A program made the translations under genes and the position numbers. The notes beneath the pieces are model-generated. The model saw only the letters and a list, made by a program, of their open reading frames with translations. It did not search any database and was not told the DNA's origin. Below are positions 169 through 9,018 of a stretch of 12,761 bases of DNA, in pieces. Positions within the stretch are counted from its first letter, which is position 1, and every line of letters begins with the position of its first letter. The DNA is from Verrucomicrobiota bacterium (lineage in GTDB: Bacteria; Verrucomicrobiota; Lentisphaeria; Oligosphaerales; Oligosphaeraceae). Location: assembly GCA_022709995.1 (NCBI GenBank), contig JAKLHU010000016.1, positions 1-12,761 of the forward strand, read 5' to 3'.

Positions 169-381
169 ATAAAACCGGCCTGGAAGGAAAAGCCAGGTGT
201 TGTGGAAGAGGAAAAGGCAAATGAAGCACTGCCGCCACGCTCTTCCACCAGGGAAAAGCATCACCGCCAGACCTGACGCGACTTGGCGATGACGCGATCA
301 ACAGGCGACACGGCTTTCCAGTGCACTCCCCGGCCGAAAGTCTGCGGAAGGTGCTTGGCGTTGGCTGGAGAAAGGAGCGCT

Positions 382-3307: not shown

Positions 3308-3374
3308 GCCTTGCCTCCGTCGCTTGGCACCCTCCATGCATTGCAACCATCCTCACTTACAATGTAATACAACC

Positions 3375-4046
3375 ATGGCAAACATCAAAGACATCGCCGC
3401 CGGCATGACTTACGTCAAGATCATGGTTGACAATTCCGAGCTCGCCACGGGGCTCAAAAAATCCAAGGGCATGGTGAAGCGCTTCGGCGACGTCTGCGCC
3501 TCCATCGGCTCGAAGATGACCGCCACCGGCGTCATGCTCGCCGCGCCCTTTGTCAATGCCATGCGCATCTTCACCCAGTTCGACGACCAGATGCGCATGA
3601 CCAAGGCCGTGACCGGCGCCACCAACGACGAATTCGACTTGCTGATCAAACGTGCCCGCCAGATCGGCAGGGACACGGCCTTCTCGGCATCCCAGACCGC
3701 CGCCGACATGACTTCGCTGGGACGAATGGGTTTCTCTTCCAAGGAAATAGACCGCGCGACGCCGTCCGTGGTCGATTTGGCGCTGGCCACTGGCACCGAC
3801 CCGGCCCAGGCGGCCGACATCGCCGCCAACAACATGCGTGTCTTTGGCATGCGAGCCACGGATATGACCACCGTCGCCGACGTATTGACCGTTACGGCAA
3901 ACTCATCGGCACAGACCCTGTATGACTTGGGCGAAGCCCTGAAAATGGCCAGTCCCCTGGCCGCCGTCGCCGTGCTGATACCCGGCCTGCGAGTCATGGA
4001 TAAACGCCTTACAGCGAATCCAGAAGAAAACAAACCATGCACGTAA
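3375..4046 (+). pseudogene. Phage tail tape-measure protein, N-terminal head 1 (truncated)
   Basis: From the ATG at 3375 about 197 residues match the conserved head of tail tape-measure proteins (PhageMin_Tail / TP901 type). Landmarks are YVKIMVDNSELATGLKK, FTQFDDQMR, VTGATNDEFDLLIKRAR, DTAFSASQTAADM, LATGTDPAQAADI and VLTVTANSSAQT with LGEALKMASP. After about 3965 the expected 'A-x-G-x-S-x-x-x-x-A' continuation is replaced by unrelated sequence and the frame ends at 4046. Intact family members are commonly 600 to over 1,500 residues, so this is a head without the coiled-coil body that sets tail length. No ribosome site is apparent before the ATG. The break is next to the end of a small gene on the opposite strand. 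Confidence 0.82.
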
Positions 4047-4838: not shown

Positions 4839-5324
4839 TCAAATCATGTCGGGTGAAAGCCCCTGCGCTTCCAAGTCGGCCAGGGTCAAGGGCTTGTTCT
4901 GTTCGTATGGGATGTCCATCGACATCAGCGGATAAAGGGCGTTTTCCTTGAGCAGGTAATTGACGGCCTCCAGGCGAGTAGGGACCTTAGTCATCGCCTT
5001 GTCGCCGCGGTGATAGTAGTGGTGCATGACCATCAGGACGCGAGGGTCGGTGGTGATGGGGTTCCCAAACGTCATGTCGATATAGACACCGTTCTTTTGA
5101 ATGTATTTTTTATACTTGCCAAGCTCATCGTCAAAGGCATCTTCGTATGGGTAAAAGCAGGATAGCCCTCTACGTAATGATTGCCAGTTATCGGTCGGCA
5201 TGAACGAAATCCCGTCCGCACGAAAATAGGGTGATCCGTCTGGATTAATTAAAATCTCCAGCTCGCCCGCGTCTTCACAGACCGGATTACTTTCGCCCAT
5301 AAATTCTTCCACAGTCCATTTCAT
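4839..5324 (-). CDS. Hypothetical protein, 161 aa
   Basis: An uninterrupted frame from ATG 5324 to TGA 4839 with normal amino-acid composition, acidic overall. No transmembrane segment, signal peptide or motif that I can assign is visible. It is rich in prolines and aromatic residues, and has the stretches GSPYFRADGISFMP, SCFYPYEDAFDDELGKYKKY and VMHHYYHRGDK. No clear ribosome site precedes the ATG, but a gene remnant ends 12 bases upstream, so translation could be coupled. Eight bases after its stop begins the frameshifted MWLF gene. It is one of the few undamaged frames within the phage block, which hints at recent arrival or maintained function. Function unknown. Confidence 0.6.
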   Translation of the reverse strand: MKWTVEEFMGESNPVCEDAGELEILINPDGSPYFRADGISFMPTDNWQSLRRGLSCFYPYEDAFDDELGKYKKYIQKNGVYIDMTFGNPITTDPRVLMVMHHYYHRGDKAMTKVPTRLEAVNYLLKENALYPLMSMDIPYEQNKPLTLADLEAQGLSPDMI

Positions 5325-5336
5325 AGTAGCGTTACT

Positions 5337-5486
5337 TTAACTGTTTTTTTCAAATTGCAAGAATTTAATACGGAAAGGAGCGAGCGGCGCATCATCCTTG
5401 ACACTCCCAAGGAAAAGAGCTGGAATTCCATGGGTGTCGGCGTTGAATTCATTTTCACCGTCGCCAAGGAACATCCTGTCGTTTTT
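5337..5486 (-). pseudogene. C-terminal fragment of an unknown phage-block gene
   Basis: In the minus-strand frame ending TAA at 5337 there are about 49 residues of convincing protein: KNDRMFLGDGENEFNADTHG, then IPALFLGSVKDDAPLAPF and a basic end. The internal ATG at 5474 lacks a ribosome site, and the similarity in style extends a few residues upstream of it, so this is the tail of a longer protein whose 5' part was deleted. The break is at about 5486, where it is joined to the head of another gene. Family not recognised. Confidence 0.4.
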
Positions 5487-5538
5487 GCGCGGTCAGCATG
5501 GCCTCGGCCTCGGTGAATGTCAGGAGAGCCTCGAACAC
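5455..5538 (-). pseudogene. 5' fragment of a probable phage head-tail connector gene
   Basis: A GTG at 5538 has AAGGAT five bases upstream and starts 3 bases after the previous stop, the typical spacing of packed phage genes. The first 18 codons read VFEALLTFTEAEAMLTAQ. This 'L-x-T/x-x-E-A-x-A-x-L' opening resembles head-tail connector or DnaT-like head-completion proteins that follow the capsid gene in Mu-like phages. After about 5487 the frame becomes nonsense and stops at 5455. The assignment rests on only 18 residues and on position. Confidence 0.3.
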
Positions 5539-5541
5539 GGG

Positions 5542-5601
5542 TTATCCTTGGGTTTGGTCGTCGCCCGGATCGGAAAGCTCGGCGGTGGGGAGCTCGACCA
5601 G
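5542..5601 (-). pseudogene. 3' tail of a phage gene between capsid and connector
   Basis: About 19 codons, LVELPTAELSDPGDDQTQG followed by TAA (5544-5542), sit in a frame different from the protease fragment they are fused to. A next-gene ribosome site and start follow immediately. The acidic, low-complexity end suits a short structural gene between the major capsid and connector genes. Too short to name. Confidence 0.3.
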
Positions 5602-5923
5602 CCGCGGTCTTCGCCAGCGCTCTGATCCAGCCCGCCGCGGGGGCCTCGTTGCCGGACAGCGTCTGGTGCTCGTAGTCGACCACTACGTCCTTGCCGCGCT
5701 TGGCAAAGTCGGCGATGACATGATCGGCGGACTCCTCGTCGAAGGCGAACCGGCCCATCTCCTCGCCCTTGGTGAAATCGTTGTCGCCATAGCGCACCAG
5801 CAGGAACTCGGACGGCGGGACTTCCGGCGGCGTCTGGGCGCCGTCGGAAAAGCCGATGGGCGCCAGCGCCATCGTGTCCGCCGCCGCGTCGCCCAAGGCC
5901 AGCATGTCGCTGTGTCTGTTCAT
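5602..5923 (-). pseudogene. Mu-like gpI prohead protease, N-terminal fragment
   Basis: From ATG 5923, about 108 residues match the N-terminal part of Mu-type I protein (prohead protease/scaffold, COG4388). Seen directly: PPSEFLLVRYGDNDFTKGE, FAFDEESADHVIADFAKRG, KDVVVDYEHQTL and APAAGWIRAL. In intact proteins this continues for a further 200 or more residues ('G-L-W-A-x-V-x-W-T', then the 'REYRYFSP' block); here the frame runs into arginine-rich nonsense after about 5602. The in-frame upstream extension to 6019 is not protein-like. The parent enzyme processes the capsid scaffold. Its position after the portal and head-morphogenesis remnants follows Mu order. Confidence 0.75.
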
Positions 5924-5967: not shown

Positions 5968-5995
5968 TTGACAAGGCCCAAAAGCCGTCTATGGT
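5968..5995 (+). promoter_or_regulatory. Sigma-70-type promoter of small RNA unit 1
   Basis: A perfect -35 TTGACA (5968-5973) is 16 bases from TATGGT (5990-5995). Predicted start is about 6002-6003, just before the closing stem of the downstream RNA. The geometry is the same as in the second unit 114 bases on. Confidence 0.55.
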
Positions 5996-6002
5996 AGTTG
6001 CC

Positions 6003-6069
6003 ACGGCACCTCGTAACACCGCGGATATCCGGAAACGGTAACCTGCTTTCGCCTCGAGGTGCCTTTTTT
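6003..6069 (+). ncRNA. Candidate small RNA 1 with end-to-end stem and T6 terminator
   Basis: Starting within a few bases of the predicted transcription start, GGCACCTCG (6005-6013) pairs perfectly with CGAGGTGCC (6055-6063), followed at once by six T (6064-6069). The enclosed 41 bases contain GGATATCC, a GAAA loop on a 3-bp CCG/CGG stem, and CCTG. The whole is a self-contained transcription unit: promoter, about 65-nt RNA, terminator. It lies in the gap between the head-morphogenesis and gpI remnants on the opposite strand. No open reading frame with a ribosome site is present. I do not recognise the RNA family; a plain terminator is less likely because of the dedicated promoter and large loop. 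Confidence 0.5.
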
Positions 6070-6081
6070 ATTACAAACCAC

Positions 6082-6109
6082 TTGACATCCGTAAAAAGCA
6101 GCTTATGAT
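6082..6109 (+). promoter_or_regulatory. Sigma-70-type promoter of small RNA unit 2
   Basis: TTGACA (6082-6087), 16-base spacer, TATGAT (6104-6109), which matches five of six consensus -10 bases. Predicted start is about 6115-6117, coinciding with the first base of the following stem. Confidence 0.6.
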
Positions 6110-6116
6110 AATGATT

Positions 6117-6180
6117 GGGTCCACCATACTCTGGATGTCCTCCTTCGGGAAGCTCCTGTCTGCGGTGTGGACCCTTTTTT
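6117..6180 (+). ncRNA. Candidate small RNA 2 with end-to-end stem and T6 terminator
   Basis: GGGTCCAC (6117-6124) pairs perfectly with GTGGACCC (6167-6174) and is followed by six T (6175-6180). The loop region contains GGATGTCC, a TTCG loop on a 3-bp TCC/GGA stem, and CCTG. The order is the same as in unit 1 (GGATRTCC, tetraloop, CCTG, closing stem, T6, ATT), so the two look like diverged members of one family. It includes UCCUCCUU, complementary to a Shine-Dalgarno sequence. The T tract overlaps the stop codon of the convergent minus-strand fragment, so it could additionally serve as that region's boundary. Read on the minus strand it offers only an 18-codon frame. Confidence 0.55.
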
Positions 6181-6664
6181 ATTTGTGCAACCTTACGTGA
6201 TGCAACTGGCATGCCTGGGGCCCGGGGCCTTTAAGCCGATGGACAATAAATTGCACTCCACGCACCTTACCGTCGATTTTCACCTTCGCTGCGATACCGA
6301 ATGTCGCCCCGACGTGCGGTTTGGTATTCGGCAAAAGTTCAACCTTGCCGTTCCTCAAGACCTCTCCCAAGGCTTTAGAGTCACAGAGCAAAGCCTCTTT
6401 CATTGGGCCTGAATACATCTTCATCGAGTGGCGCATCCCAGCCGATGTGACTATTATCTCCCCAACAGCCTTATTCTTGAAGTCTACACCCTCGTGCTGC
6501 GTCAGCGCGTATTGGACTTTTCCACCCAGCTTCAAGCCCCTCCACCCTTCTGGCAGCGAGGCGGTTGATACGCTCGCCATCTTCCCATAATCAAAGCGGC
6601 CGTCGGCCTTGCGGGGCTGGCCGTCGTAAAAGGCGCTTACTTGGCCGCGCCCCGGCGCCGCCAA
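6179..6664 (-). pseudogene. Phage head-morphogenesis protein C-terminal part with nuclease-like domain
   Basis: A frame of up to 161 residues with only a TTG available as start (6664), overlapping the end of the preceding portal-like gene by 28 bases. It probably lacks its true 5' part. It begins with FYDGQPRKADGRFDYGK, similar in style to the 'QPR(D/K)xxGRF' linkers of phage head proteins. From about residue 65 it reads GEIIVTSAGMRHSM, KEALLCDSKALGEVL, VKIDGKVRGVQFIVHRLKG and ends LHHVRLHK. That pattern (T-x-x-G-x-x-H-S near the start, I-D-G-K, closing HH) resembles the polyvalent-protein-associated BECR-type nuclease domains found at the C-terminus of Mu-F-like proteins. The fold call is from pattern memory only. 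Its position between portal and gpI remnants agrees with Mu gene 30. Confidence 0.45.
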
Positions 6665-7044
6665 AAACCGACCGGCAGGGCGCCGTTGAGAAAGCCAGCC
6701 AGAAGTGCACCCTGCAGCGCATCCTCGAAGGCGCGCGCGTCAAACTGGTCCATCACCCCGGGCAGCGACGCCAGAAAGGCCGGCCCGCGCTCCCGGAACT
6801 TCGCGACCAGCGCCGGGTCCGCGGGGTCCAAGTCGCCGAATGACTTCCGGATGGCGGCGTCGATGGGAAGGCGCCACGCCGCCAGAGCGTCCTCGTCCAC
6901 CATCCGGCCGAGGGTCGCCCGAATCAGCCGGTCGCCGGCAGCCGACACCCTGCGGCCCTCGTCCGTCATGGCCGTCTGGCCGTCTTCATCGTCGTCAATG
7001 TCCTCGTCGCCGGCCTTCTTGCCGGCCGGCGAGGGATCGCCCAT
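6637..7044 (-). pseudogene. Mu gp29-like portal protein, C-terminal fragment
   Basis: 135 residues from the ATG at 7044 to TAA at 6637. The first 30 are an acidic linker (GDEDIDDDEDGQ). The rest is helical: DRLIRATLGRMVDEDALAAW, then PIDAAIRKSFGDLDPADPAL, and FEDALQGALLAGFLNGAL near the end. Two repeated helical segments ending in 'L-x-x-A-x-x-A-G' are typical of the C-terminus of DUF935/gp29 portals, which are normally near 500 residues. The upstream part is gone: a terminator hairpin directly precedes the ATG. The following frame overlaps it, and the order portal, head morphogenesis, protease matches Mu. The identification leans on this order. Confidence 0.45.
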
Positions 7045-7182: not shown

Positions 7183-7216
7183 CACGCTTTGACAACCGCC
7201 AAAACTCACTTATAGG
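7179..7216 (+). promoter_or_regulatory. Double -35 promoter pointing into antisense of tRNA-Leu
   Basis: Two TTGACA copies (7179-7184 and 7189-7194); the second is 16 bases from TATAGG (7211-7216). The predicted start near 7223 would give RNA antisense to tRNA-Leu. The 16-base geometry equals that of the two small-RNA promoters. No gene on the plus strand follows. Confidence 0.4.
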
Positions 7217-7257: not shown

Positions 7258-7344
<87 letters not shown>

Positions 7345-8055: not shown

Positions 8056-9018
8056 TCACCATACTGATTTTGGCCGGCGCCGTTCGAGTTCGGCCTGCGC
8101 CGCCGGGGGCAGTTCCGGGAAAAAGTCCAGCCCGGTCAGCGCCTCGAGTTCGTCGATGGTGCACAGCGCCTGGTCCAGGCTGGATGGCGCCGGGGCGTCG
8201 TGCCGGAAACGGAAGGCGATAGCCCGCAGGCGCCCGCAACGCTCATCCACCACGATCTTGTAAAAGGACTCAGGAATGGGAATGCCGGACGGCAGTTCGC
8301 GGATCAGTTCCGGATTGTAGACGGGGCCGGCGATGACCCAGATCTCCTGGAAGCGCCCGGTGTAATTGATTGCTTCGCGCAATTCCAATTCGTTCCAGAC
8401 GCCGGCATTGAGGTCGTGGCGCTGCGGCACGATGTTCGACATCAGGAACGTCTCCCGCTGCGCTTCCGGGCCATGACAGCGGCCGAGGCCGAAATTCGGG
8501 GCCAGATGGCCGCGGTCAAAACCGCTGCCGGTGTAATGTTCCGAACTGACTTGGGCGACCGTCCGCAGGTCGGTCATGAATTCCACCGGCCGCGGTCCGG
8601 CCAGGTTGTCCCGGCTGTCGAACAGACGATACGCGACCCAGGCCGGATTGCGGCGCCGTTCATCGTAGCCGACCCAATACGCCCGGTTGCGCAATACCCG
8701 CAAGGCGCCGGCCGCCGGCAGGCCGCCGTACACGGTCGCGTTGCCCGCGCCGACTTCACAGACGACGCCGTCGCCGCGGTAGAGCTGCCAGAAATCAACC
8801 ACCATTTCCAGGAAAGTGGCCTGGTTCTGGCGCCGGACATAATTGCCCCAAAGATGCTTGACCTCGGCCTTGCGTTCGGCCGGCTCGAAACGACGCCAAT
8901 ACCAACCCGCGCCGGCAGCCAACAGCCCCAGCAGCACCGCCAGGCCAAGCCACCGCCATTTCCGGCTCGAGCCACCCGGTTGGCCACGGCGTTTCCCACG
9001 ACTGCTCCGTCCTGACAT
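8056..9018 (-). CDS. DNA/RNA non-specific endonuclease, membrane-anchored
   Basis: 320 residues from the ATG at 9018, preceded by GAGAGGA at 8 bases. It has a basic N-terminus (residues 1-22), then one hydrophobic helix at about 24-40, which fits a signal anchor placing the rest outside the cytoplasm. The catalytic region is that of the NUC1/EndoG/Serratia nuclease family. DRGH is at 168-171 with H171 as general base, then MSNIVPQ at 193-199 and LNAGVWNELE at 203-212, where N204 is the expected magnesium ligand and E212, eight residues on, its partner. All key residues are present, so it is probably active. It degrades single- and double-stranded DNA and RNA, serving nutrient scavenging or defence. 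It is transcribed in the same direction as rpmA, but a terminator separates them. Confidence 0.9.
   Translation of the reverse strand: MSGRSSRGKRRGQPGGSSRKWRWLGLAVLLGLLAAGAGWYWRRFEPAERKAEVKHLWGNYVRRQNQATFLEMVVDFWQLYRGDGVVCEVGAGNATVYGGLPAAGALRVLRNRAYWVGYDERRRNPAWVAYRLFDSRDNLAGPRPVEFMTDLRTVAQVSSEHYTGSGFDRGHLAPNFGLGRCHGPEAQRETFLMSNIVPQRHDLNAGVWNELELREAINYTGRFQEIWVIAGPVYNPELIRELPSGIPIPESFYKIVVDERCGRLRAIAFRFRHDAPAPSSLDQALCTIDELEALTGLDFFPELPPAAQAELERRRPKSVW

Follow-up and report, generated by a model that had tools for sequence, protein, structure and literature searches.

Convergent small-RNA units abutting toxin-like ends of Mu-like phage proteins: candidate RNA immunity genes

Why should a bacterial contig carry two tandem small-RNA units among the debris of a prophage? 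The window analyzed here, meaning the whole 12,761-nt stretch of DNA, comes from a Verrucomicrobiota bacterium of the family Oligosphaeraceae (GenBank assembly GCA_022709995.1, contig JAKLHU010000016.1). A preliminary description had read positions 5968 to 6180 as two promoter/closed-RNA/terminator units, and we located all of the elements where it had placed them (Table 1). The units repeat with the 114-base period claimed, and both hold the described order of shared motifs: GGATRTCC (GGATATCC at 6023 in unit 1 and GGATGTCC at 6133 in unit 2), a tetraloop, CCTG and T6-ATT. The stem-closed RNA is 58 to 59 nt long in both units, with a perfect stem of 8 to 9 bp whose arms are GGCACCTCG/CGAGGTGCC in unit 1 (spanning 6005-6063) and GGGTCCAC/GTGGACCC in unit 2 (spanning 6117-6174). 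The distance from promoter to stem, described as 8 to 10 bases, is correct for unit 1 and too long for unit 2. None of 200 shuffles was as stable as the fold of unit 1 (z = -3.4), and 6 of 200 were as stable as that of unit 2 (z = -1.7). A promoter scan of the window gave 14 sites, with both unit promoters in the top three, against a shuffle mean of 4.4 sites in total.

Table 1. Positions of the two RNA units and of phage-related features in the window
Feature	Position	Strand	Remarks
Phage tape-measure fragment	3333-4046	+	PF10145; flanks the region
Mu-like I protease fragment, next gene of the head cluster	5321..5923	-	PF10123, 58.1 bits
Unit 1 promoter	5968..5995	+	TTGACA 5968-5973, 16 nt, TATGGT 5990-5995
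Unit 1 RNA (class B)	6005..6069	+	9-bp closing stem and T6 6064-6069; 9 nt after TATGGT
Unit 2 promoter	6082..6109	+	TTGACA 6082-6087, 16 nt, TATGAT 6104-6109
Unit 2 RNA (class A)	6117..6180	+	8-bp closing stem and T6 6175-6180; 7 nt after TATGAT
LPD3-like C-terminal domain, toxin-like tip	6179..6664	-	PF18798, 26.2 bits, cut-off 27 (borderline)
ORF in another frame	6637..7044	-	By eye like what precedes the LPD3-like domain of the G006 portal protein
DNA/RNA non-specific endonuclease	8056-9018	-	PF01223; flanks the region

To look for homologues, we ran blastn against the bacterium's own genome and 58 relatives. Convincing matches were found in two of the 58, one of the same genus (G001; E = 8.7e-9) and one of the same family (G017; E = 1.1e-6), and they lie in arrays. 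Contig C118 of G001 has six tandem units with TTGACA in each. On its contig C96 there are three, of which two are fused and have no clear promoter separating them, and contig C588 of G017 has four, the first cut at the contig start. The array RNAs sort into several classes, named A to E; unit 2 belongs to class A and unit 1 to class B, with a homologue of unit 1 on C96 of G001 (L079 1491-1559, minus strand). R1, a covariance model built from five class A RNAs, recovered its five members and a degenerate sixth (E = 3.3e-5) and did not recover unit 1, so the proposal that both units form one family gave way to two sequence classes. The homologue search with covarying stems that had been suggested as a check did bear fruit within class A. 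In the alignment of the five sequences, 97.5% of cells pair, and the closing stem is fully paired, with three of its eight pairs changing on both sides. The covariation score was reached by 1 of 500 shuffles, which for five sequences is modest on its own. The claim of discrete, phage-linked small-RNA genes, with further members and compensatory changes in the closing stem, is thus upheld at the level of prediction. Class A is carried by 3 of 29 family genomes, and we took weaker matches in five other family genomes as chance.

Class D RNAs of the arrays are 120 to 130 nt long with the conserved stretch TTCAAGAGCCANCTTNTCGTAA; among 47 genomes of the order they were found at three places only (L080 6100-6226, minus strand; L079 1720-1850, minus strand; L081 about 180-313, plus strand). 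On C118 and C588, the array converges on a tRNA-Val gene (L080 5608-5684 and L081 774-850, respectively) and sits immediately downstream of it, and no tRNA was present within the stretch of C96 that was scanned. The tRNA-Leu gene of the window (7258-7344), about 1.1 kb from the units, has the same relation to them as the tRNA-Val genes have to the arrays. The promoter style of the arrays recurs at 7189-7216 (plus strand; TTGACA, 16 nt, TATAGG); this promoter is aimed at the 3' end of the tRNA-Leu gene, and by eye no closed RNA follows it. The contig with the six-unit array also carries a CRISPR-like array in which a 30-mer occurs in 62 exact copies (L080 8500-12190), and a transposase-like ORF lies between the two arrays. 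At gathering score, Rfam 15 matched only tRNAs in the window and the arrays and nothing at six phage or tip loci; in permissive scans the matches fell far under the gathering scores, one tRNA excepted.

The surroundings of the units in the window are phage derived. They are flanked on either side by a minus-strand Mu-like prophage remnant, the I protease on one side and the LPD3-like domain on the other. The stop codon of the latter (6179-6181) overlaps the T-run of unit 2, and the T6-ATT of this unit arises where that T-run runs into the stop codon, TAA, read as its reverse complement. The preliminary description had held that the opposite-strand phage remnants leave the units unexplained. 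That view is not supported, given this overlap and the recurrence of the convergent arrangement in other Mu-like phages (see below). The gene that carried the LPD3-like domain looks broken in the window, and the adjoining minus-strand ORF has no Pfam match. Of the domains considered, the remnant itself matches LPD3 and lacks a MuF domain; its relative in G006, from another genus, sits on a portal protein. By eye, the window domain ends in ..HHVRLHK*, and class A and B units elsewhere end at short remnants such as ..HNARLKKQK, ..FHVRLRKQK, RLHE* and RLTK*.

In G006, the portal protein of the related prophage (PF06074, 226 bits) terminates in a domain related to the LPD3-like one of the window (E = 2.6e-10), and its own Pfam LPD3 match is weak (12.8 bits). 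On the opposite strand, the interval from the portal end to the I protease contains three promoters with structured stretches and T-runs behind them, as well as what by eye is a second copy of the domain end. One such unit, with GCCTGAAT..ATTCAGGC and TTTTTTATT, occupies the same place on IMG/VR contig L153. The layout that recurs is a MuF head or portal protein with a variable C-terminal domain (the tip), whose stop codon is abutted by a convergent unit before the I protease gene.

We then asked how often such units occur at I protease loci. PF10123 is present in 110 of 387 genomes of the phylum, and our survey covered 67 loci: 27 of 30 in a first set, 38 of 40 in a second, the window and L153. 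Five loci at which the contig ends at the gene were dropped, and upstream sequence is short at a few of the 67. The strict detector reported antisense units at 9 of the 67 loci, counting the window, G006 and L153, which were known before the survey, compared with 0 of 67 in the sense direction and 2 of 201 dinucleotide shuffles. Two looser settings gave 12 and 15 antisense units, none in sense, and 3 and 9 of 201 shuffles. Units at L156 and L169 had been seen by eye before the detector allowed the T-run to lie up to 6 nt from the stem; the 38 loci added after that change gave three antisense units versus none in sense. Most I protease loci thus have no strict unit, and not all nine strict units adjoin a tip. 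The one at L157, inside another gene, is probably due to chance. By eye, MuF phage L271 has a closed antisense RNA that the detector did not report, and no unit adjoins the LPD3 relative on C35 of G001. The Verrucomicrobial portal fusion L205, with a tip that looks nuclease-like, leaves a gap of only 69 nt. A MuF domain exceeded the cut-off at L187, L200, L184, L196 and L159 (PF04233) and L237 (TIGR01641) and fell below it at L156 and L169; L196 also has a weak PBECR2 match. Two others of the nine strict loci also lack a tip: L202 (G172:C14) has an antisense closed-RNA unit adjoining an ORF that by eye resembles guaA, and L192 (G117:C41) has two tandem antisense units beside a tRNA gene.

When the gene ends were read by eye, phages with a common domain type had a common type of RNA. 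We set this out as a prediction for one type, "WNNA" (carrying ..LKLVSWNNAGDDYGDSEW..), and tested it by searching a 109-residue tip in 197 genomes of the taxonomic class. The search returned 13 places in 12 genomes, 2 of the related SWHRS type and 11 WNNA. Nine of the 11 WNNA places have an antisense promoter, closed RNA, T-run and a hairpin with an ACGATT loop. The other two are L231, cut by the contig end, and L232, where a divergent tip goes with one or more antisense units that by eye are of another kind. Three of the nine RNAs were known beforehand, so the fresh result is six of seven testable places. The unit lies within a few bases of the stop in the eight places with the usual stop codon (at L226 this applies to the second of two modules); at L234 the frame continues past the usual stop, and the unit is at the matching point. 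Fresh viral contig L237 encodes a complete MuF protein with the RNA 4 nt from its stop and the I protease 171 nt on. The two SWHRS tips share 74% identity, and their RNAs have a common core by eye. No Pfam family matches the WNNA tips, and a single-sequence structure model (mean pLDDT of 59) gave no useful structural match. Two RNA modules of the same class appear by eye behind a single promoter, antisense past the MuF stop, at L187 (1168-1268, plus strand) and L191.

We aligned nine WNNA RNAs, with rows picked by the ACGATT motif and the RNA of L200 (G055) excluded as a rearranged variant (alignment A3). The alignment has two helices in which 98.6% of cells are paired and six of eight pairs change on both sides. 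Its covariation score of 0.594 compares with a shuffled mean of 0.251 and was reached by none of 500 shuffles; slid versions of the alignment pair at 34 to 61%. The covariance model of these RNAs (R2) found 22 places in 17 of the 197 genomes, 9 of them by construction. It recovered L237, which is not in the model (E = 1.8e-12), and missed the RNA of L200. Past the 3' end of the RNA, on the other strand, a toxin tail scored above all 60 shuffles at 14 of the 22 places, compared with 1 of 22 (by one point) in the sense-strand control. In these 14 cases the distance between RNA and tail match is -3 to 11 nt, except for one of 49 nt, which belongs to the first of two modules. The 13 new places comprised 6 above the shuffles, 3 with a tail below the shuffle maximum near the right spot (L243, L246 and L248) and 4 without a tail; 5 of all 22 places lack one. 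Several places retain only about the last 12 to 25 codons of the tip gene, as would be expected of leftovers from displaced tip-plus-RNA cassettes. Predicted transcripts show no coding potential: in 14 of them the longest closed ORF had 0 to 20 amino acids, and no ORF was shared among them.

These results bear on several explanations. Convergent, abutting terminators in the strictly placed cases are what one would see if the unit were a device in cis, its promoter and terminator limiting late head gene expression or read-through while the RNA stays inert. We regard that as unlikely, given that the RNA core is structured and covarying, that one transcript can hold two RNA modules and that copies persist with just 12 to 25 codons of the gene. 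Tandem tip-plus-RNA cassettes and remnant tails would also suit stem units serving as recombination sites for tip exchange, like the attC hairpins of integron cassettes; yet promoters and T-runs are retained, and the stems pair despite sequence change where a shared site should retain its sequence, which makes this very improbable. Least credible is a type I antisense RNA pairing with the toxin mRNA. Such an RNA would lie on the opposite strand and touch the gene end, as these do, but in the placed cases the overlap amounts to a few bases at the stop codon and the T-run, far short of the extensive complementarity to the toxin mRNA that type I calls for, and orphan copies have no whole gene alongside.

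The linkage of the RNA units to phage domain ends is well supported by these comparisons, which also establish, at the level of sequence, the position of the units, the match between classes, the covariation and the cassette behavior, tandem and orphan copies included. The units are probably RNA immunity genes, or antitoxins, for the toxin-like C-terminal domains of MuF or portal proteins of Mu-like phages. Several observations weigh against this: the majority of I protease loci that lack a strict unit, the short gap at L205, the differing RNA at L232, the borderline LPD3 call of the window, the LPD3 relative on C35 of G001 with no neighboring unit by eye, the R2 places whose tail is absent or below the shuffle maximum, and the failure of Pfam and of the structure model to place the WNNA tips. 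Toxin immunity is judged a better reading than the earlier label of regulatory RNA. We infer that the tips have RNase activity and are toxic, that the units are transcribed and that their RNAs bind and neutralize the tips. The tip would be an RNase-like effector, either made late or brought in with the virion. The prophage would make the RNA from its own promoter, and the RNA would bind and block the tip in the lysogen; as the RNA gene is convergent and has a promoter of its own, production is possible at a time when the late genes are silent. Where a whole tip is missing, as in the window and the arrays of G001 and G017, the RNAs may be displaced immunity that still guards against related phages, and tandem units and orphan arrays could be immunity retained after tips were replaced or lost. 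The class match and cassette behavior would also fit if the RNA were the effector's partner (a cofactor, guide or cargo packed in the virion with the tip) and not its inhibitor. We consider a partner role improbable, as orphan arrays with separate promoters seem easier to understand as kept immunity.

On balance, it seems somewhat more likely than not that this is a new class of toxin immunity in which phage polymorphic toxins have RNA immunity, a class-specific RNA gene lies tail-to-tail with the stop codon of each tip, the cassettes recombine and hosts hold orphan arrays of antidotes to several phage toxins. If true, RNA immunity to effectors of phage heads and portals would be a new survival route for lysogens and bystanders, and orphan small-RNA arrays would be explained. 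Several RNA-protein pairs are on offer for direct tests of specificity. A search of the open PMC literature by title and abstract returned no RNA antitoxin or small RNA tied to MuF, polymorphic toxins or prophage immunity. Accounts of polymorphic-toxin immunity describe it as protein based, and according to a passage of a 2012 survey (PMC3482391) systems of this sort with RNA regulators were not known.

The closest protein counterparts are phage polymorphic toxins. Jamet et al. describe MuF polymorphic toxins of temperate phages, whose C-terminal domain varies, and place the expected immunity gene, a small ORF, just downstream (PMC5576092). Six of our loci likewise have a MuF head protein with a variable C-terminal extension. 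In our system the immunity place is taken by an RNA gene of opposite orientation; at L237, the RNA unit and not a small ORF fills the 171 nt that precede the I protease. Iyer et al. report that PBECR domains, predicted RNases, occur as fusions to MuF and portal proteins and that LPD3 shares this setting (PMC5512222). Our tips, too, sit on MuF and portal proteins, but here they come with an RNA partner, none of which figures in the relevant passages of that account, and the WNNA tips fall outside the Pfam models.

Among systems with RNA antitoxins, type III (ToxIN, CptIN and TenpIN) offers the nearest comparison. As outlined in one account, its antitoxin repeats lie upstream of the toxin in one operon with a terminator between, and the ToxI RNA binds and blocks ToxN (PMC5086642). 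Common to both is a small structured RNA set against an endoribonuclease, with the antitoxin role proposed and the nuclease presumed in our case, and the predicted transcripts here that hold two RNA modules recall the repeat antitoxins. By gene order, our units fall outside type III. The RNA gene has a promoter of its own and is convergent with, and downstream of, the toxin-like part, which forms the end of a phage head or portal protein. The simplest reading by analogy is a mode of action that would most resemble type III, attached to a polymorphic toxin.
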